Virus record (IMG/VR): IMGVR_UViG_3300048065_000074
Location: 1 to 21,272 of that record
DNA from: a virus
Strand: one strand, 5' to 3'
DNA: 21,272 bases
Numbering within the stretch: position 1 is the stretch's first letter; each line of letters begins with the position of its first letter. Position numbers and translations under genes: made by a program. The notes below the pieces were generated by a model. It made no database searches. It was not told the origin of the DNA and saw only the letters and a program-made list of their open reading frames with translations. Below are positions 1,653 to 21,272 of the stretch, piece after piece.

Positions 1653-3254
1653 ATGGCACGTTCACAACCTTTTACAGTAGCATGTGAAGGCGGTTTAGTT
1701 ACTGCTTCTAATCAAATTGATTTGCTACGAAGACCCGGTGTAGCTACAGAGTTAGAAAACTTTGAAGTTTCTATAGAAGGTGGTTATAGAAGAATTAGTG
1801 GATTTACTAAGTTTGGTGAAGGTAGTGCAACTCAACCAACTGGAAGTGCTGATAGAATTTTAGGTGTATTACCTTATGCTGATGGTGTAATAGTTTGTGC
1901 TAGTACAGGTATTTTTTTTAGTCAAGATGGTATTACATGGTTACAAATAAATAGAATATCTGCAGGTGGTGGTGACAGTTATGCAACTTTTACAGGTAAA
2001 GCTTTAAGTGCAAGAACTGGACAAGGACAATGTAGTTTTGCAATATTTGAAAACAGTTATGATTATGGTGAAGTAATTATAGCAGATGGTGCAAATAAAC
2101 CTTTTGCATTTAGAATGGAAGGTACTGGTGCATTAAACACTAGAACTTTTTTTAGTAAGCTTATTACTGTAGATGGAACTAATAGTGTAAAATATATTAC
2201 AGTACATGACCATCACTTATTAGCTGCTGGAGTAAATGATAATGATTCTACTGTATATTATAGTGCTAACAATGCACCAGAAGATTTTACAGGAACTGGA
2301 GCAGGTGCTATTACTATCTCAGATAAGATAGTTGGTATTAGAGGATTCCGTACAGATTTATTTATATTTTGTGAAAATAGTATTCATAAACTTATAAACA
2401 TTAATGATTCACAAACTATAGCAGTAGTACCAGTAGCAGAAAATGTAGGATGTTTAAGTGGTTATAGTATTCAAGAGATTGGTGGTGACTTAGTATTTTT
2501 AGCACCAGATGGAATAAGAACAGTCGCTGGTACAGCAAGAATTGGTGACGTAGAGTTAGGAACAGTTAGTAAAGCTATACAGCCTATACTTAGAGAAGTA
2601 GCAACAAACATTGATAACTTTCAAATAACAAGTATAGTATTGAGAGAAAAATCACAGTACAGATTATTTTATACTAATGTAAATGCTGTAGCTACAGGAC
2701 AAAAAGGAATTATAGGAACACTAAGACCAAACGGTTTTGAGTGGTCAGAAACAAAAGGATTAGAAGTAACAGAAATAGGTTCAGGATTTGATACAAATGG
2801 TGTGGAAAAATATTATCACGGGAATAATTCAGGTTATGTGTTTATACATGATTCAGGTGATGATTTTGATGGCAGTGCTATATTAGCAAGATATGCTACA
2901 CCAGATTATGATTATGGTGATTTAGGAACTTTAAAAACGTTACACTATTTAAAGGTTTCAATAGCAGCAGAAGGATTAGTTACTCCAGAAGTTCAAGTTA
3001 AGTTTGATTATAACAGTGGAGACGTACCACAAGTATCTAGTAATTATTCACTAGGTACAGTAAATCCTTCATCAATATTTGGTAGTGCTGTATTTGGAAC
3101 AAATATATTTGGTGCATCAGCATCACCTATGTTGAGAACACCACTACAAGGAAGTGGTACTTCAAACAACTTTACGGTGATTTCAAACGATAGTAAAGCA
3201 CCATACAGAATTAATGGTTTATATGTAGATTACATACCTTCAGGTAGGAGATAA
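1653..3254 (+). CDS. Tail tubular protein B-like nozzle protein
   Basis: The 533-residue product starts MARSQPFTVACEGGLVTASN and has a conserved early NFEVSIEGGYRRISGFTKFG segment. It then shows repeated short beta-blade-like stretches, such as VYYSANNAPEDFTG followed by IVGIRGFRTDLFIFCENSIHKL. This pattern is seen in beta-propeller tail nozzle proteins (T7 gp12 / P22 gp10 type). The C-terminus YVDYIPSGRR matches the usual GRR ending of such proteins. The product would form the distal tail tube through which DNA leaves. It is shorter than T7 gp12 (about 794 residues). The start lies 3 bases after the tail tubular A stop, with only a weak AGAAG upstream. The exact family is inferred from motif style and gene order. 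Confidence 0.7.
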   Translation: MARSQPFTVACEGGLVTASNQIDLLRRPGVATELENFEVSIEGGYRRISGFTKFGEGSATQPTGSADRILGVLPYADGVIVCASTGIFFSQDGITWLQINRISAGGGDSYATFTGKALSARTGQGQCSFAIFENSYDYGEVIIADGANKPFAFRMEGTGALNTRTFFSKLITVDGTNSVKYITVHDHHLLAAGVNDNDSTVYYSANNAPEDFTGTGAGAITISDKIVGIRGFRTDLFIFCENSIHKLININDSQTIAVVPVAENVGCLSGYSIQEIGGDLVFLAPDGIRTVAGTARIGDVELGTVSKAIQPILREVATNIDNFQITSIVLREKSQYRLFYTNVNAVATGQKGIIGTLRPNGFEWSETKGLEVTEIGSGFDTNGVEKYYHGNNSGYVFIHDSGDDFDGSAILARYATPDYDYGDLGTLKTLHYLKVSIAAEGLVTPEVQVKFDYNSGDVPQVSSNYSLGTVNPSSIFGSAVFGTNIFGASASPMLRTPLQGSGTSNNFTVISNDSKAPYRINGLYVDYIPSGRR

Positions 3255-14641: not shown

Positions 14642-17600
14642 GTGGCAAGACCTTTTTCATACATAGATGATAGAACTGAAACTATCAGAAACACTATAAA
14701 TCCTTTATATAAATTAACTAAAAAAGAAGCAATTGAATATGCCGTAGGTATGGGAGCTTCTGATTCTCTTAGAGGTATAGCTCAAGTATTTGGTAAAGGT
14801 GGAGAGTTTTTTGGATGGGATGGTTTAACAAATAGTCTTAAAGAAAAAGATGAGAAACTTAGAGCTATTTTAGAACACCCTGAATATGGAAAAGAAGCTA
14901 ACGCAGCTTTTCTAGGTTCTGCTATTGTAGCTGACCCAGTAAGTTATCTTCCTATTGTAGGTTGGATTCAAAAAGGTAAAAAAGCTAAAAACTTAAAAGA
15001 CCTTGCAATTTATGGAGGAGCTAGTGGAGCTGCTGTATCTGCTATAGGATATACTCCAGAAGAACAAAGAGGTTTAATAGTTGGTGAAGATGCTAATTTA
15101 TTTCAAAGACGTTTAGAAAACGCAGCAATTGGAGGTACTGCTGGTGCTGTTATAGGTAGTGCAGGTGGAGCAGTTGTTGATTTAATTCAAAAAGCTAGAG
15201 GTAAAGGTAGTATTTTTCAAGGCATTGATGAAATAGAACCTAAAAAGTTTGATGATGACATTGTAGATGAAGATGAATTAGCTAAACCAATAATTAAAGG
15301 TTCTTTAGTACGTGCTAATGATAGAAAAAATATAGGTACTGTTATTGATTTAGATGAAGATAAAGGAATAGCTACCGTAAGATTTACTAATAAAGAAAAA
15401 GGCACAACAGCTACTAAAAGATTTACTATAGATGATTTACAACCTCCAAAACCGGGACAACAACGTAAAAGTAAAGTAACTCTTGAAGAAGAAGTTGCAG
15501 AAAAACCTAAAGATATTATTTTTGTTATTGATAGAAAAACAAATAAAGGTAATCCAATTTATAAAACTACTAATCCTAGTAATAAAACTACTTATAGTAT
15601 ACAAAAAGCAGTTGATGAACAAGGTAATATAATTCCTAAACAATGGGAAGTTACAACTGTACCTTTTTTAAGAGGAAGAAAAAAAGGTGAAAGTATTTCT
15701 GATTTTAATAGAAGAAAAAAACAATTAACCGAAATAAATGTATTTGGAAGTCTTCAAGATTCTCAAAGATTTGTTAAAAATAAAATAAAACCAGATGAGG
15801 CAGTAATTGTTCCTAATCAAAATGCTTTTGGTAAAAATGTAGCAGATGAATTAGACAAACCTGTTGACCAAAAATATACTTTAAAAAATCCAGTATTAAA
15901 AGTTTATCAAGATATGGTAGGCACTCCTTTAAAAAATCTTATGTTTAATAATCCGGGTGAAAGTTTTTCAGCTGTAGCTGGTTACGGATTTGGTTTTAAT
16001 GCAATAGATGACCCAGATGCTACCTATGCACAAAAAGTAGCAGCAGGACTTACAGGAGCTGCTATAGGTGCTGGTGGAGTTAATAAAATTAAAAATATTA
16101 AAGTAGGTGATGAATATATTGGTGAAATTTTTGGAAGAAAACTAATAAGTGATTATGGTTTAAAACCTGAATACTTAAATTTAAGACAAGCTTATAGAAC
16201 TAATAAAAATGAAATAGGTATGGAATTTGCTGAATTAGCTGAAAGAGCTAGTAAAGAATTAAACCCAGAACAAAATAAATTATTATACGGTTTATTAAAC
16301 GGAGATTTAGCTACTATAGAAAAATTAGAGCCAGAAGCTTTAGCATTAAATACGGAGACTAGAGGAATACTAATTAAATACGGACAAGAATTAGTAGACA
16401 GAGGTTTATTAAGTGAAAAAGTATTTAAGAAAAATATAGATACTTATATTAAAAGAACTTATTTAAAACCTAAAAAGTCTGATAACAAAACAACATATGA
16501 AAATAGTAAACAAATTAGACTTATCGGAGATGAATTAAAACCAAGAGGTAAGATTGAAACTATTACTTTAAAAGCTTTTAACAATCCTAAAAACAATTGG
16601 AAGAAAGAAGGTTGGGAAATTTTAGAAGAATTAAAAGGTGGTAAAGTTAAAGTAAGAAGACAGTATACAAAACAAGAAAGAAAAGATTTAGAAGAAGTTG
16701 AAAATGCTTCATATGCTATAGCAGAAACAGGAAGATTATTTGCAAACGATATAGCTAGTGCTAGATTCTTTGATGATTTATCTAAGAATAAAAAGTTTGT
16801 ATTAGACGAAGCAGATTGGAAAACATTAACTCCAAGCGAACAATTACGTTTTGAAATTATGCCAAGTAGTAGAGTTAAAGATACTAAAAAATTAAAGTAT
16901 GGTGAACTTAGCGGTAAATATGTAGACAAAGATGTTCTTAAAGATATAAAACACATGTATGGTTTTAGTAATGTTGATAAAGCTAGAGAATACTTAAAAG
17001 TATTTGATAGATTACAAACAATTTGGAAAAAAACTAAAACTGCTTGGAGTCCTTCAACTCACGTAGGTAATACTGCTTCTAACGTAATGTTATTAGATTT
17101 TGCTGATACTAAATTTAATTATGTTGTAAAAGGAATTAAGGAAATGAGAAATCCTAATTCTACATTACATAGACAAGCAAAAATAGATGGTATATTTGAT
17201 GTTGATTTAGTAAGTAGAGAATTAAAAGATTCTTTAACTGAAGTGGAAAAAGGTTTATTAAAAATTCAAAACGAACAAAGTTTTGGTTTAGGAGTTTTTG
17301 GTAAAACAGGTGATAGTATTAAAAACTTTGCTAAGTGGACTCCAGAAAAAATGGAAAAATATTATCAACTTGAAGACCAAATATTCAGAATGGGTGTTTA
17401 TATGGACAGACTTGATAAAGGTTTTTCAAGGTCTGAAGCAGCTTTAGAAGCACGTAAATGGTTTATTGATTATGATATTAATGCTCCGTTTATACAAGGA
17501 TTAAAAAGAACTGCAGTACCTTTTATAAGTTATACCTATAGAGTAATACCTTTGTTAGCTGAATCAGCAGCTCTTAGACCTCATAAGTTTGCTAAATGGG

Positions 17601-18916
17601 CTGCATTAGGTTATGGTATGAACGAAGGTTTTACATATTTAGCTGATGATAAATATGGAGAAGATATAGATAGATTGACAGTTAGAGATTCTTATAATAA
17701 AAAATTATTTGGAGGTGTTCCAATTGTCGGGGATGCTATGCCTTATACAAATATTAGACTTCCAGTAGACGATAAAAATGGTAATGCTTTATATTTTGAT
17801 GCAAGTCGTTGGATTCCCGGTGGAGATATTTTTGAAGGTAGAGAGGGTCCTGTAGGTTTTCCGGGGCTACCAGCTACTTTACAGCCCGGTGGTTTGTATG
17901 TAGATTTAATATCTAATGTATTTTTTAAAGTAGACCCTTTTACAGGACAAAACTTAGAAGATATGGGAGTTGATACAGAAAGCACTGGAGCAATATTAAA
18001 GCATTACGGTAAAGGTCAGATACCTAATATACCCGGATTACCAGAAACTTTTGCTACGAAAAAAATACAAAGAGCTAGAAGAGTTGAGGCAGGTGAGGAT
18101 GTAGGTGAATTAATACCCGGTTCTCAATATGTAACTAAAGATACTCCTTTCTTAGCACTAGCTTATGGTTTTGGTTTTAGGGTAAGACCACAAGACGCAA
18201 GGGTTAATAAGAAAGTAAGAGAATCAAATTATTTAAGAGAAAGAAGCAATATACAAAGTAAAATAAAAAAAGCAGAAAAAGATGTTAAAAACGGTAACTT
18301 AACTGCAAAACAAAAAGATAAAAAAATAATAGAACTTGAATCTGAACTTATAACTTTAAATGCTGAATACGAATTATACATAGCAAAACTTCAAGAGCTT
18401 GAAGACAAGTTAAGTGCTGAAGGCTTAAGAAAATTTGAACAAAGAAAAAGAAAAGTTGAAGGCGGAATAATAGAGGGTGAAGACGTACCATACACTAAAG
18501 AAAACCCAGCAGATAGAGTTGACCCTTTTACAGGACAACCTTACTCTGAGCAAGTAGATAGATTAGGTTTATCTGATGGAGGTAATACAACACCATTATT
18601 TGAGGATAGAATAAAAAATCCAAATAAATATCCTTATCTTAAAAAAAATAAAAACTTAGTAACACATAGAATGGCTGATTCTGATAATATGGTATATCCT
18701 TTAGTTCAGTTACAATCTGATGGAACTTTAAAAGATTATGGTAATGATTTTGAAACAGCTAGAAAAGAAGCTATAAAAAATAATAATTTTAAAACATTCA
18801 AAACTAAAGAAGAAGCTAGAGCATATGCTCAAGGTGGTTATAAAACTGAAGAATTTAAAAAGTATTACAAAAATCAGATGAAAGAATTAGGATTAGATGT
18901 TTTTCAAAAGGAATAA
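14642..18916 (+). CDS. Very large internal/ejection protein candidate (1424 aa), GTG start
   Basis: Translation starts at GTG. Residues 121-137 and 161-182 are Gly/Ala-rich hydrophobic helices (NAAIGGTAGAVIGSAGGAVV), of glycine-zipper type; a similar one lies at 463-480. Residues about 219-266 look like a small SH3/KOW-like beta barrel (GSLVRANDRKNIGTVIDLDE). Residues 801-814 (AWSPSTHVGNTASN) and 905-970 (LEDQIFRMGVYMDRLDKGFS, then VPFISYTYRVIPLL) match patterns that recur in giant phage 'polyvalent' or ejected proteins. Residues about 1200-1260 form a charged coiled coil, and DPFTGQ occurs twice. No protease, transglycosylase or polymerase motif was seen. The likely role is entry into the host with the DNA, comparable in place to T7 gp16. 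Function is inferred. Confidence 0.7.
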   Translation: MARPFSYIDDRTETIRNTINPLYKLTKKEAIEYAVGMGASDSLRGIAQVFGKGGEFFGWDGLTNSLKEKDEKLRAILEHPEYGKEANAAFLGSAIVADPVSYLPIVGWIQKGKKAKNLKDLAIYGGASGAAVSAIGYTPEEQRGLIVGEDANLFQRRLENAAIGGTAGAVIGSAGGAVVDLIQKARGKGSIFQGIDEIEPKKFDDDIVDEDELAKPIIKGSLVRANDRKNIGTVIDLDEDKGIATVRFTNKEKGTTATKRFTIDDLQPPKPGQQRKSKVTLEEEVAEKPKDIIFVIDRKTNKGNPIYKTTNPSNKTTYSIQKAVDEQGNIIPKQWEVTTVPFLRGRKKGESISDFNRRKKQLTEINVFGSLQDSQRFVKNKIKPDEAVIVPNQNAFGKNVADELDKPVDQKYTLKNPVLKVYQDMVGTPLKNLMFNNPGESFSAVAGYGFGFNAIDDPDATYAQKVAAGLTGAAIGAGGVNKIKNIKVGDEYIGEIFGRKLISDYGLKPEYLNLRQAYRTNKNEIGMEFAELAERASKELNPEQNKLLYGLLNGDLATIEKLEPEALALNTETRGILIKYGQELVDRGLLSEKVFKKNIDTYIKRTYLKPKKSDNKTTYENSKQIRLIGDELKPRGKIETITLKAFNNPKNNWKKEGWEILEELKGGKVKVRRQYTKQERKDLEEVENASYAIAETGRLFANDIASARFFDDLSKNKKFVLDEADWKTLTPSEQLRFEIMPSSRVKDTKKLKYGELSGKYVDKDVLKDIKHMYGFSNVDKAREYLKVFDRLQTIWKKTKTAWSPSTHVGNTASNVMLLDFADTKFNYVVKGIKEMRNPNSTLHRQAKIDGIFDVDLVSRELKDSLTEVEKGLLKIQNEQSFGLGVFGKTGDSIKNFAKWTPEKMEKYYQLEDQIFRMGVYMDRLDKGFSRSEAALEARKWFIDYDINAPFIQGLKRTAVPFISYTYRVIPLLAESAALRPHKFAKWAALGYGMNEGFTYLADDKYGEDIDRLTVRDSYNKKLFGGVPIVGDAMPYTNIRLPVDDKNGNALYFDASRWIPGGDIFEGREGPVGFPGLPATLQPGGLYVDLISNVFFKVDPFTGQNLEDMGVDTESTGAILKHYGKGQIPNIPGLPETFATKKIQRARRVEAGEDVGELIPGSQYVTKDTPFLALAYGFGFRVRPQDARVNKKVRESNYLRERSNIQSKIKKAEKDVKNGNLTAKQKDKKIIELESELITLNAEYELYIAKLQELEDKLSAEGLRKFEQRKRKVEGGIIEGEDVPYTKENPADRVDPFTGQPYSEQVDRLGLSDGGNTTPLFEDRIKNPNKYPYLKKNKNLVTHRMADSDNMVYPLVQLQSDGTLKDYGNDFETARKEAIKNNNFKTFKTKEEARAYAQGGYKTEEFKKYYKNQMKELGLDVFQKE
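18906..18912 (+). promoter_or_regulatory. Ribosome binding site that selects the endolysin start
   Basis: AAAAGGA at 18906-18912 lies 8 bases before ATG 18921. The earlier in-frame ATG at 18897 lies upstream of this site, inside the 1424-residue gene, and would add MFFKRNNK, which is unrelated to the enzyme fold. The site therefore supports 18921. Confidence 0.75.
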
Positions 18917-18920
18917 TAAA

Positions 18921-19370
18921 ATGGATATAGAACTTTGCAAAGCTGAAATAAAGAGACACGAAGGCGAAGTGTTAGAAATTTATATGGATAGTCTAGGCTA
19001 TAAAACTTTAGGAGTTGGACACCTTTGCCAACCTAACGACCCTGAATATAACTGGGAAGTTGGCACACCTGTCACACAAAAAGTTGTAGATATGTATTAC
19101 GAGGATGACTTTGAAAAGCATTATAAGGAAGCTATACATGTCTTTGGTAGCGAGGAAGACTTTGAAAAGCTACCAGAAGTTATACAAAGAGTGTTAGTAA
19201 ACATGTGTTTTAACCTAGGAGGTTCAAGACTTTCAAAGTTTCGTAACATGTTGAAAGCTTGTAGAGAACATGATTGGGCGAAGATGGCTGTTGAAATGGA
19301 AGATAGTCGTTGGTTTAAACAGGTAGGTAGAAGAAGTATTGAATTACAAAAAATGGTATTAGGAGCCTGA
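18921..19370 (+). CDS. Endolysin, T4-type lysozyme (GH24 muramidase)
   Basis: With the start at 18921 the enzyme has 149 residues, close to the usual length of T4-type lysozymes. It hydrolyses the beta-1,4 bond between N-acetylmuramic acid and N-acetylglucosamine in peptidoglycan. The catalytic residues Glu14 (IKRHEGE), Asp23 (YMDSLGY) and Thr29 (KTLGVGH) keep exactly the 9- and 6-residue spacing of T4 lysozyme Glu11-Asp20-Thr26. The later VLVNMCFNLGGSRLSKFRNM segment is the typical second-lobe motif, and DSRWFKQVGRRS is the usual closing helix region. There is no signal peptide or signal anchor, so it should need a holin to reach the periplasm. A holin gene follows two bases after its stop. 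Confidence 0.95.
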   Translation: MDIELCKAEIKRHEGEVLEIYMDSLGYKTLGVGHLCQPNDPEYNWEVGTPVTQKVVDMYYEDDFEKHYKEAIHVFGSEEDFEKLPEVIQRVLVNMCFNLGGSRLSKFRNMLKACREHDWAKMAVEMEDSRWFKQVGRRSIELQKMVLGA

Positions 19371-19371
19371 A

Positions 19372-19845
19372 ATGAAGAACGTATTAAAGAACATAGTTGG
19401 AGCTGTTGCACCTACATTAGGTACTGCCTTGGGTGGACCAATGGGAGGAATGGCAGCAAACATGATAGCTGATGTATTGGGAGTACCTAATACACCTAAA
19501 GCTATAGAGAAAGCTGTATCAGAAGCTACCCCTGAACAAATGCTAGAACTTAAAAAAGCTGAACAAGCTTTTGAAGTTCAGATGAAAGAGTTAGAAGTAG
19601 ATGTGTTTAAGTTAGAAACACTAGATGCTCAAGATGCTAGAAAAAACTTTAGTAAAGATTGGACTGCACGTATTATGGGTATAGCTACAGTAGGTGGATT
19701 CTTAGGATATATATTCCTTGTTACTTTACAACCACCAGAGCAGAACTCTGAAGCTCTTATAAACCTTGTCCTAGGTTATCTTGGTGGTTTAGCAAGTGCT
19801 GTTATATCTTTTTACTTTGGAGCTTCTAACACTTCTAAAGACTAA
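19372..19845 (+). CDS. Holin, three-membrane-segment type (GTA_holin_3TM-like)
   Basis: The 157-residue protein starts after AGGAG at 19361-19365. A Gly/Ala-rich hydrophobic N-terminus (residues 7-37, containing LGTALGGPMGGMAANMIADV) is followed by a charged helix with EQMLELKKAEQAFEVQMKEL. Two membrane segments follow at about 101-119 (IMGIATVGGFLGYIFLVTL) and 131-150 (NLVLGYLGGLASAVISFYFG). This layout and the 'LKKAE..F..QMKEL' helix match the three-segment holin family known from gene transfer agents and many phages. It would form inner-membrane lesions that let the endolysin out. It is directly downstream of the endolysin, and its stop overlaps the next start by one base (TAATG). Confidence 0.85.
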   Translation: MKNVLKNIVGAVAPTLGTALGGPMGGMAANMIADVLGVPNTPKAIEKAVSEATPEQMLELKKAEQAFEVQMKELEVDVFKLETLDAQDARKNFSKDWTARIMGIATVGGFLGYIFLVTLQPPEQNSEALINLVLGYLGGLASAVISFYFGASNTSKD

Positions 19846-20195
19846 TGGAACAAGTAGTAGTCTTTATTCAAGAAGTTGGATTTCCTATAGCAGCAGCAAT
19901 AGGTCTTGGTTGGTTTATTTATAAGTTAGTCATACGTATTGTTGATGGTATGGAAGCAAAGCTAGATACTGTTGATGCAAAAGTAGAAGCACAGATAGCA
20001 GCTATAGAAGAGAGACTAGGTGTAAAGTTAGATACACAACATGGCATACTTGTTGCATTGATAGACAGAGTAAGAAGTCTTGATAATGAAATCATAAGAC
20101 AAGATACTATGATTAAAACTATACTAGGAGTGCCACAACTAATTGATACTGCTAAAATTTCAAAAGCTAAAAGAGATGATAAAAGAAAAGATTAA
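19845..20195 (+). CDS. Lysis-block membrane/coiled-coil protein (116 aa)
   Basis: One membrane segment lies at residues about 12-32 (GFPIAAAIGLGWFIYKLVIR). It is followed by a long coiled-coil-prone helix (MEAKLDTVDAKVEAQIAAIE, then DRVRSLDNEIIRQDTMIKTI) and a very basic tail ending KAKRDDKRKD. Acidic residues before and basic residues after the membrane segment predict N-out, C-in topology, unlike an inner-membrane spanin, whose coiled coil should be periplasmic. It could be a holin partner, an antiholin or a second holin. The gene is coupled to the holin by TAATG, so a part in lysis is likely; the exact role is open. Its last 20 bases overlap a short reading frame at 20176. Confidence 0.75.
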   Translation: MEQVVVFIQEVGFPIAAAIGLGWFIYKLVIRIVDGMEAKLDTVDAKVEAQIAAIEERLGVKLDTQHGILVALIDRVRSLDNEIIRQDTMIKTILGVPQLIDTAKISKAKRDDKRKD

Positions 20196-20265
20196 ATTAG
20201 AATTACCTATTATAAGTATCTTTATATTTTTATTTATAATAAGTGTATTAGAGCAACTACAATGA
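20176..20265 (+). CDS. Candidate 29-residue membrane peptide coupled to csgF
   Basis: A short frame from ATG 20176 to TGA 20263-20265 encodes a peptide with a basic start (MIKEKIKLELP) and one hydrophobic segment (IISIFIFLFIISVL). It starts inside the upstream gene in another frame and ends in an ATGA overlap with the csgF start at 20262, a classic coupling junction. The ribosome binding site is weak (AAGAG at 20171-20175). It fills the only sizeable gap in the block (20196-20261). csgF has no good binding site of its own, which makes a coupled leader peptide plausible. AT-rich DNA easily encodes hydrophobic runs, so it may also be chance. Confidence 0.4.
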   Translation: MIKEKIKLELPIISIFIFLFIISVLEQLQ

Positions 20266-20825
20266 AGATAGACGATAAGAAAATATTACAAGTAGTTAAT
20301 CTTTCTCCAAGTGAATCTTGGATAGAAAAAATTGTAAACATACATCCGATGAAACAAATTACTGTAGCTTCTATAGTACAGATATTAGTATTTGGATTTA
20401 TGTTGTTAGCTTTCTGGACTAACTCTAAACTTTTTGCAGACGAAGTAGTATTTAAATTTAAAAGTCCTAGCTTTAGTGGTATTGGTACATCATCACACTA
20501 TCTTACAATCCAGAACCAAGAGTTTAACAGAAAGGAAGCATTGAAAGCAGAGATTAAGGCACTTCAAGACCAAATAGAAAGAGACAAAGAGAATACAACA
20601 CTTGCAAGATTTATAAGAAATTTAGAGTCTAGAATATATGCACAATTATCTAGACAGTTAGTAGAAAATTTATTTGGTGAGACTCCAAGTGATAATGGCG
20701 TACTAGAATTAGAGGGCAACCGAATAGAATATAGTGTTGTCGATGGAATAATAACTTTAAAAATAACAGACAGCGATGGTAATACAACGACTATTTCTTT
20801 GCCTATTGGTAGCTTTACTTTCTAG
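20262..20825 (+). CDS. csgF: CsgF-like curli assembly/secretion accessory protein
   Basis: CsgF docks in the outer-membrane CsgG channel and in curli systems helps place the nucleator outside the cell. Residues 30-59 look like a Sec signal (MKQITVASIVQILVFGFMLL, ending KLFA), with predicted cleavage before Asp60. The mature start then reads DEVVFKFKSPSFSG, which matches E. coli mature CsgF position by position at Phe5, Phe7, Pro10, Phe12 and Gly14. A helical middle includes RFIRNLESRIYAQLSRQLVE and a FGE turn. The C-terminal domain (NRIEYSVVDGIITLKITDSD, then TTTISLPIGSF) resembles the CsgF beta domain. The 29 residues before Met30 are unusual; a start at 20349 would remove them but has no clear binding site. 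It is longer than E. coli CsgF (138 residues). The last 50 bases overlap csgG. Confidence 0.85.
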   Translation: MKIDDKKILQVVNLSPSESWIEKIVNIHPMKQITVASIVQILVFGFMLLAFWTNSKLFADEVVFKFKSPSFSGIGTSSHYLTIQNQEFNRKEALKAEIKALQDQIERDKENTTLARFIRNLESRIYAQLSRQLVENLFGETPSDNGVLELEGNRIEYSVVDGIITLKITDSDGNTTTISLPIGSFTF

Positions 20826-21272
20826 TTGTGCAGTATTAAATAAGAATCAAGACTTAGTATTAACACAAGATATAAAGCCTAGTTCTACATTAGACTTACA
20901 ATCAGAAGAATTAAAAAACTTACCAAGTGCAAAAGTAAGACCAACTATAGCTATATACCCTAATAGCTTTAGAGATTTAACAGGTCAACGTAGAAGTAAT
21001 AGTTCGTTTGCTTTGTTTAGTACAGCTATTACACAAGCTCCTGAAGCATTTTTAATTAGAGCTTTTAAACATGCAGCAGGTGGTGAATTTTTTAGAGTAG
21101 TAGAACGTGTAGGTTTAGATGACCTAACAAAAGAAAGACAACTAATTAGGTCTACTCGTAAAGAATTTAAAGAAGATAATAAAATGCAACCACTGCTTTT
21201 TGCAGGGTTATTGGTTCAGGGAGGAGTTGTTAGCTATGAGGCTAACCTCAAATCTGGAGGTGCTGGTGCTAG
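20776..21272 (+). CDS. csgG: CsgG-like outer-membrane curli secretion channel lipoprotein (3' end outside window)
   Basis: CsgG forms a nine-subunit outer-membrane pore. The frame starts at ATG 20776, inside csgF; it is the only ATG after the in-frame stop at 20764. The product opens MVIQRLFLCLLVALLSSC, a lipoprotein signal with lipobox LSSC at Cys18, followed by Ala rather than Asp, consistent with outer-membrane sorting. E. coli CsgG has a very similar start (MQRLFLLVAVMLLSGC). Further matches are IAIYPNSFRDLTGQ, FSTAITQ, FFRVVERVGLDDLTKERQLI and LLVQGGVVSYEANLKSGGAG, ending at the GGxGAR motif. 165 codons are present; about 100 are expected beyond the window. The stretch aligned with the E. 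coli constriction (Tyr51, Asn55, Phe56) keeps Phe but has Leu for Asn. Confidence 0.92.
   Translation, partial: MVIQRLFLCLLVALLSSCAVLNKNQDLVLTQDIKPSSTLDLQSEELKNLPSAKVRPTIAIYPNSFRDLTGQRRSNSSFALFSTAITQAPEAFLIRAFKHAAGGEFFRVVERVGLDDLTKERQLIRSTRKEFKEDNKMQPLLFAGLLVQGGVVSYEANLKSGGAGA

Follow-up and report, generated by a model that had tools for sequence, protein, structure and literature searches.

Why would a phage carry genes for a curli secretion pore directly behind its lysis genes? The question is raised by viral record IMGVR_UViG_3300048065_000074, a fragment of 21,272 nt that was analyzed at full length (hereafter, the window) and that ends within csgG. The original prediction described endolysin, holin, and membrane/coiled-coil genes running into csgF and csgG, and proposed that the phage uses CsgG-CsgF either as a lysis or leakage pore or for remodeling the surface of the infected cell. 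The gene order was as described, with all five genes on the plus strand. The features are as follows.

18921..19370, plus strand: endolysin of the phage lysozyme family (PF00959, E 1.1e-8; phrog_7 endolysin, E 2.9e-16), a neighbor of the cassette and not a member
19372..19845, plus strand: holin-like protein, 157 aa, two transmembrane (TM) segments (phrog_1544, E 2.7e-26; two hydrophobic segments), likewise a neighbor and not a member
19845..20195, plus strand: TMcc, a one-TM coiled-coil protein of 116 aa, assigned as the first cassette gene (phrog_18771, E 4e-15)
20176..20265, plus strand: hydrophobic 29-aa ORF, overlapping the end of TMcc and the start of csgF (ATGA)
20262..20825, plus strand: csgF with an N-terminal extension (PF10614, E 3.7e-17; [NS]PxFxG motif)
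20776..21272, plus strand: csgG, truncated by the contig end at 165 of ~284 aa (PF03783, E 1.5e-19; lipobox LLSSC)

The 66-bp spacer between TMcc and csgF contains most of the 29-aa ORF, and a 50-bp overlap joins csgF to csgG. The window contains no detectable tRNA or tmRNA. A second in-frame ATG for the endolysin lies at position 18897. The holin label of the 157-aa protein comes from context, and phrog_1544 carries no named function; in Vibrio phage 1.275.O, a relative of this protein is encoded immediately after a DD-peptidase gene. We consider that the window most probably (about 0.76) holds the 5' half of a phage curli (type VIII secretion) cassette that would export curli-like fibers and that lies 3' of podovirus structural and lysis genes.

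The predicted identities of csgF and csgG were confirmed by the PF10614 and PF03783 matches. CsgG combines its family match with a lipobox, as befits the pore lipoprotein of a type VIII secretion system, and breaks off at PF03783 profile position 111 of 210. A full-length relative matches PF03783 at E 3.3e-48 and NCBIfam CsgG at E 1.5e-47 (under that model's cutoff), and the full-length relative L158 matches the Escherichia coli CsgG chains in the PDB (E 7.6e-44). The constriction-loop segment is kept in phage CsgG and can be aligned with that of bacterial CsgG, the bacterial relatives reaching 44% identity. The CsgG search of phage records also picked up an unannotated Salmonella phage record of 1,499 bases (33.6% identity).

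Of the secretion signals originally called clear, that of CsgG includes the lipobox; in CsgF, a signal-like segment is present but is preceded by ~30 additional residues, an atypical start. In relatives, the stretch matching this extension is often a separate small protein, and mature CsgF probably starts near residue 60 (DEVVFKFKSPSFSG). The [NS]PxFxG motif occurs in 150/150 phage CsgF proteins, 47/47 bacterial CsgF proteins, and 1/1825 other ORFs, and is a post hoc motif, widened after sequence inspection from a narrower first pattern that had missed all 47 bacterial proteins. No PDB sequence, solved CsgF included, matched the CsgF at E ≤ 1. According to PMC10133297, the CsgF N terminus is suggested to be necessary for CsgG recognition and secretion.

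Because csgG is cut by the record end, the lack of csgA/B in the window is uninformative; similarly, a curlin profile found no match in the window, which stops inside csgG. We infer that the record continues past csgG as its relatives do. These comprise 147 contigs with a CsgG of >100 aa, excluding the window and two myophages; they were picked for their resemblance to genes of the window (best 80 per scan), and the counts thus hold for near relatives. Among near-relative contigs with enough sequence, a curlin-like gene lies directly 3' of csgG in 112/112, and csgF, the FecR gene, and the cyclase gene are present in 140/141, 96/96, and 79/79, respectively. Domain matches in relatives include FecR (PF04773, E 3.9e-11), CHASE2 (PF05226, E 2.4e-27), and cyclase (PF00211, E 7.6e-21). 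By these counts the cassette is complete in relatives, and median dN/dS values of 0.15 to 0.19 across CsgG, CsgF, curlin, FecR, cyclase, and TMcc indicate that its proteins are under purifying selection. CsgE (PF10627) was found in 0/17 records, all of them fragments, and in the E. coli control; the pore may therefore be ungated.

The curlin-like subunit of the podoviruses has diverged. Pfam Curlin_rpt matches 23/47 members at E ≤ 1 (best, 6.4e-5), and a DUF3060 model matches 32/47 (best, 3.9e-5). Of four subunits run singly against Curlin_rpt, two went unmatched at the limit used and two fell below the cutoff, and NCBIfam CsgA reached only E 0.018. Nevertheless, when a profile built from 87 podovirus sequences was run on 80 bacterial csgG loci, it matched ORFs 1.1 to 3.1 kb from csgG in 16 of them (best E 4.8e-9) and no shuffled ORFs. 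The one such bacterial ORF put to Pfam (L354) contains nine Curlin_rpt stretches (E 2.2e-28). AF2 predicts an all-beta fold for the curlin-like protein (pLDDT, 81.9; pTM, 0.77). Foldseek returned no match to this model at E ≤ 0.001, and VIA-align returned many beta-solenoids, which ranked highest (Z up to 17.1), with no curlin entry among the best 50 listed; a solenoid shape shared with a predicted model proves no function.

At the other end of the cassette, TMcc precedes csgF/csgG in 132/132 near-relative contigs with enough sequence, and among 50,697 phage records its only matches are the six that carry csgF. Its family, phrog_18771, is that of the gene just 5' of csgF in Pelagibacter phage HTVC008M (E 7.1e-41). 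On this sequence evidence we assign TMcc to the curli cassette both in podoviruses and in myophages. Thus, of the lysis block originally predicted, the endolysin and holin-like genes do adjoin csgF-csgG, but the membrane/coiled-coil gene goes with the curli cassette. A weak match of window TMcc residues 1 to 21 to holin family phrog_4898 (E 0.0031) counts against this assignment. TMcc of relative L061 also weakly matches holin family phrog_1296 (E 0.016) and the Rz-like spanin family phrog_739 (E 0.084). TMcc proteins of 93 to 116 aa showed no kinase domain by Pfam or NCBIfam; from gene position, we guess that TMcc may be what PMC9599517 calls a histidine kinase. The 29-aa ORF, which has a similar counterpart at the equivalent offset in several relatives, is possibly a small membrane protein.

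The cassette would therefore read TMcc, the small membrane ORF, csgF, csgG, curlin-like subunit, FecR, and CHASE2 adenylate/guanylate cyclase. In the mechanism that we propose, the subunit would be exported through the Sec system of the host, which is probably of SAR11 type; the CsgG lipoprotein would assemble into an outer-membrane pore, and CsgF would dock in it via its N-terminal peptide. The subunit would then be threaded out, presumably forming fibers on the infected cell, while FecR, the cyclase, and perhaps TMcc might sense or regulate envelope state. Expression is likely to be late, and, as proposed in publications, the phage could gain from aggregation or sibling capture or from being shielded against competitor phages.

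The best reading is thus a type VIII secretion cassette of a kind already known from phages, exporting curli-like fibers. The original prediction noted csgG/csgF in some marine phages, and phage curli cassettes are described in PMC7029224 and PMC9599517. The latter reports the entire cassette from HTVC023P-type podoviruses, with csgF, csgG, a curlin repeat gene, FecR, often adenylate cyclase, and one or two genes before csgF. In contrast to that arrangement, the window cassette adjoins an endolysin and a holin-like gene, and its pre-csgF gene encodes a 116-aa TM/coiled-coil protein with no kinase match. In phage 023Pt_psg01 (MW574966), no type VIII secretion system is annotated in the first 45,000 of 59,769 bases. 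HTVC008M and Methylophilales phage Melnitz likewise carry TMcc family genes, csgF, csgG, curlin, FecR, and cyclase, and their CsgG proteins are 44% and 38% identical, respectively, to a podovirus CsgG; they differ in being T4-like myophages in which both the TMcc and the curlin gene occur twice and the cassette lies near ssb and helicase loader genes. Bacterial curli operons share the CsgG and CsgF families and curlin repeats near csgG. They differ from the tested phage records, in which CsgE was not found, and the phage FecR, cyclase, and TMcc profiles matched nothing in 80 bacterial csgG loci (by title, largely Gammaproteobacteria and Bacteroidota). PMC9599517 places the cassette's origin in the Alphaproteobacteria.

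Could CsgG-CsgF instead replace spanins by opening the outer membrane for lysis or leakage, timed with holin and endolysin? A related idea, a pinholin/secretin proposal for Melnitz, appears in PMC9004378. The lysis reading draws on a pore that stands alone and adjoins lysis genes. The genes are indeed adjacent and codirectional, the cassette lies downstream of endolysin/holin-like genes in 90/140 contigs found by lysis-gene scans, and no terminator-like site occurs in 18500-21272, though just 1.2 would be expected. None of 17 records yielded CsgE, and the weak holin and spanin matches of TMcc point the same way. As originally stated, no spanin pair is recognizable in the window, a fragment: families phrog_739 and PF03245 gave no match, and a simple lipobox scan retrieved CsgG alone. 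This absence of a recognized spanin remains unexplained.

The pore does not stand alone, however. Its invariable curlin-like neighbor, accompanied by FecR and cyclase in near relatives, leaves the predicted lysis pore unsupported, and the endolysin neighborhood varies (upstream in 26, downstream in 5, and not recognized in 12 of 43 contigs). With the two myophages, whose cassettes lie away from lysis genes, linkage is frequent but not invariable, and a different cassette occupies the slot in 20/140 contigs. Moreover, CsgG overexpression is reported in a review (PMC4551309) to make E. coli erythromycin sensitive with no vancomycin sensitivity, growth defect, or general loss of membrane integrity. 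The published idea is weakened because neither the relatives of the window nor Melnitz have an isolated pore: the Melnitz record contains two genes passing the Pfam Curlin_rpt cutoff, in conflict with the premise given in PMC9004378 that Melnitz lacks csgA/B. We thus regard a lysis pore as very unlikely, whereas the other predicted role, surface remodeling, fits.

Family phrog_739 is unspecific: it matched 5/17 records but also 11/14 control genomes, including archaea. By coordinates, its match in G013 (L061) falls within TMcc; the other four are ORFs of 115 to 134 aa with one N-terminal hydrophobic stretch, located among small ORFs, and were rejected as spanins, with no same-strand lipobox ORF nearby. 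PF03245 matched 0/5. GTA_holin_3TM (PF11351) did not match the window; its control matches (6/14 genomes) were all below the cutoff, and so the nonmatch decides nothing.

Two further readings were weighed. In one, raised in PMC7029224 and PMC9599517, the pore mainly lets nutrients or cofactors into the infected cell and curlin plays a minor part; the missing CsgE gate (17/17 records) and the FecR-domain protein in the cassette are in keeping with it. CsgF and curlin are nonetheless as constrained as CsgG (median dN/dS, 0.18, 0.15, and 0.17), and thus more so than an uptake pore alone would need, making this reading improbable, if a little less so than a lysis pore. A hitchhiking bacterial operon in decay, functionless in the phage, could account for clear bacterial csgG relatives (up to 44% identical), but low dN/dS in all cassette proteins, a complete cassette in each near-relative contig with room, and its sharing by podo- and myophages render this the least credible explanation.

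Host curli genes are absent according to PMC9599517 and PMC9004378. The latter also notes no clumping in infected OM43 cultures, which counts against the fiber-export reading. A limited literature search found no study testing phage csgG function. The cassette raises the question of whether fibers encoded by the phage come to coat infected marine bacteria.

Beyond the assignment of a small TM/coiled-coil gene to the curli cassette in two phage kinds, the comparison points to a swap site where a second, uncharacterized cassette replaces curli. Tentatively, and with considerable doubt, the slot 3' of the lysis genes might be an exchangeable dock for surface-fiber modules, with host-surface remodeling a general late function; amyloid-like curli would then be merely one solution for remodeling the surface of a dying host. 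The alternative cassette encodes two proteins that are apparently secreted and unrelated to curli, one rich in Thr/Asn repeats and one large (pLDDT of the modeled N-terminal domain, 45.5).

The right end of the 21,272-base viral record (G000; 34% GC) carries five genes in the following order, all on the plus strand:
18921-19370, +, endolysin
19372-19845, +, two-TM holin-like protein
19845-20195, +, one-TM coiled-coil protein of 116 aa (TMcc)
20262-20825, +, csgF
20776-21272, +, csgG
The original prediction of genuine csgF and csgG genes after lysis genes held, and both assignments are secure (PF10614, E 3.7e-17; PF03783, E 1.5e-19). Such genes have been described in pelagimyophages (PMC7029224) and podoviruses (PMC9599517). 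The former suggests uptake or host capture, while the latter describes complete cassettes in nine podovirus genomes. We consider it probable (roughly 0.76) that TMcc, csgF, and csgG form the 5' part of a phage-borne curli cassette of this already-known kind, which would export curli-like fibres. A SAR11-type host is likely but not proven, as a structural protein (1653-3254) shares 46% identity with one of Pelagibacter phage HTVC104P.

Because the end of the record cuts CsgG, the genes downstream were read in relatives. These were fetched by four viral-contig scans with CsgG, CsgF, endolysin, and the holin-like protein, each limited to its best 80 candidates (out of 283, 532, 283, and at least 596, respectively); the resulting 278 loci were merged into 209 contig pieces. 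ORFs were labeled by profile searches seeded with the window and phages HTVC008M and Melnitz. The nearest relatives have CsgG proteins 93 to 97% identical to that of the window (best 80 of 283). Among 147 contigs with a CsgG of >100 aa, all near relatives from the best-80-per-scan set, a curlin-like gene lies directly 3' of csgG wherever downstream sequence suffices (112/112), followed by FecR (96/96) and a cyclase gene (79/79), which in some contigs is encoded on the other strand. A CHASE2 domain is present in the single podovirus cyclase examined. Upstream, csgF precedes csgG in 140/141 contigs, and TMcc precedes both in 132/132. Thus, csgF-csgG is never a bare pore in the near relatives examined.

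The podovirus protein encoded 3' of csgG appears to be curlin-like. It has a hydrophobic, signal-like N-terminal segment and invariant QxG and GxxN positions; its AlphaFold2 model is all-beta (pLDDT, 81.9; pTM, 0.77), and the closest solved shapes are beta-solenoids. Pfam Curlin_rpt matches are weak (23/47 members at E ≤ 1; best, 6.4e-5) and are equaled or beaten by DUF3060 (32/47; best, 3.9e-5), while NCBIfam CsgA reaches E 0.018 at best. A profile of 87 podovirus subunits retrieved, with a best E of 4.8e-9, ORFs 1.1 to 3.1 kb from csgG at 16 of 80 bacterial csgG loci; shuffled ORFs gave no hits. One of these bacterial ORFs (L354) has nine Pfam curlin stretches. Among phage records, the subunit matches only the post-csgG curlin genes of Melnitz (E 2e-3) and HTVC008M (E 6e-4). 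One of the two HTVC008M genes contains Pfam curlin repeats above the cut-off and the other does not.

Taken together with these genes, CsgG-CsgF would export a fibre-forming subunit onto the surface of the infected cell. The CsgG constriction-loop segment can be aligned with bacterial CsgG, with substitutions. An N-terminal CsgF motif, defined post hoc with the sequences already in view, occurs in 150/150 phage and 47/47 bacterial CsgF proteins and in 1/1,825 other ORFs. Purifying selection acts on the cassette proteins (median dN/dS, 0.15 to 0.19), as estimated from 40 sequences per protein after removal of saturated pairs and of those with a dS of 0.1 or less, with overlapping frames taken as is. 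A search of 17 records, each a fragment, found no CsgE.

The original prediction offered a lysis or leakage pore or remodelling of the infected-cell surface. A role in lysis had already been proposed in PMC9004378, which states that Melnitz is without csgA and csgB. The basis of that proposal is weakened, since the Melnitz record (MZ577097.1, 52015-54809; L150:7324-10118) holds two annotated curlin-repeat genes, both passing the Pfam cut-off. Overexpression of CsgG in Escherichia coli is also reported (PMC4551309) to occur without general loss of membrane integrity, making a lysis pore very unlikely. The small probability we leave to it reflects weak matches of TMcc to holin families phrog_4898 (window residues 1 to 21, E 0.0031) and phrog_1296 (L061 relative, E 0.016) and to the Rz-like spanin phrog_739 (L061, E 0.084). 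The L061 protein is likely the source of a separate phrog_739 match in its record, and we take these matches to reflect the usual composition of a short TM segment plus coiled coil.

TMcc was originally placed in the lysis block; the corrected boundary puts it with the curli cassette. It shares phrog_18771 with an HTVC008M gene upstream of csgF (one 41-aa ORF intervenes there). In a search of 50,697 phage records, its matches were confined to the six csgF-bearing records, of which four are from Melnitz and two from HTVC008M. CsgG alone also matches an unannotated 1,499-base Salmonella phage record (OR851715.1, 253-654; 33.6% identity), which may be host DNA. Since TMcc has no kinase match in Pfam or NCBIfam, it may be the gene that PMC9599517 calls a histidine kinase, sometimes present twice, and places ahead of csgF; this identification is a guess based on position. 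Relatives of the holin-like protein occur in 138 phage records, mostly of Vibrio and Pseudomonas phages; its lysis label is supported by Vibrio phage 1.275.O, where the gene lies directly 3' of a DD-peptidase gene.

Within this phage group, csg and lysis genes are frequently adjacent, but the arrangement is not fixed. Of 43 long-flank csg contigs, 26 have an endolysin of the window's family upstream and 5 have it downstream; in the other 12, none was recognized. In the T4-like HTVC008M and Melnitz, the cassette is near ssb and the helicase loader. The 140 contigs from the endolysin and holin-like scans (best 80 each of 283 and at least 596) have csg downstream in 90, an alternative cassette in the same slot in 20, csg upstream in 4, and neither in 6; 20 are too short. 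The alternative cassette was delineated in nine contigs:
L194:3948-7576, after the holin-like gene
L279:8813-12432, after the holin-like gene
L237, L242, L244, L259, L266, L269, L281, further contigs
It encodes two proteins with signal-like starts (judged by eye), one rich in Thr/Asn repeats and the other about 670 to 860 aa where complete, plus a TM/coiled-coil protein in contigs extending far enough. No contig carries both cassettes (csgG in 151, including the window and myophages; alternative proteins in 20 and 16), a count partly shaped by contig extent and fetching route. A possible swap site after the lysis genes is a lead.

The L279 copy of the Thr/Asn-repeat protein matches phrog_20531. 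Relatives of the C-terminal part of the Thr/Asn-repeat protein occur in cultured pelagiphages, among them HTVC115P, HTVC023P, HTVC033P, and Mosig. Eleven csg contigs have a different upstream protein of 144 to 147 aa replacing the holin-like one and no window-family endolysin nearby:
L005, L009, L023, L027, L028, L042, L052, L069, L078, L099, L111
The start of the window CsgF ORF (20262-20440) corresponds to a separate 40- to 60-aa hydrophobic protein in relatives and may represent a fusion or shared signal segment. Two CsgF-labeled ORFs precede csgG in 43/146 contigs; a 59- to 61-aa relative stands alone in three csg-lacking contigs, and a hydrophobic protein of that size occurs in three of the nine alternative-cassette contigs. 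A 29-aa hydrophobic ORF (20176-20265) overlapping the TMcc end and csgF start is present in several relatives. Neither Pfam nor PHROG gave the 1,424-aa protein at 14642-18916 a match at E ≤ 1; its central region is ∼24% identical to sequences in four Helicobacter pullorum phage records.
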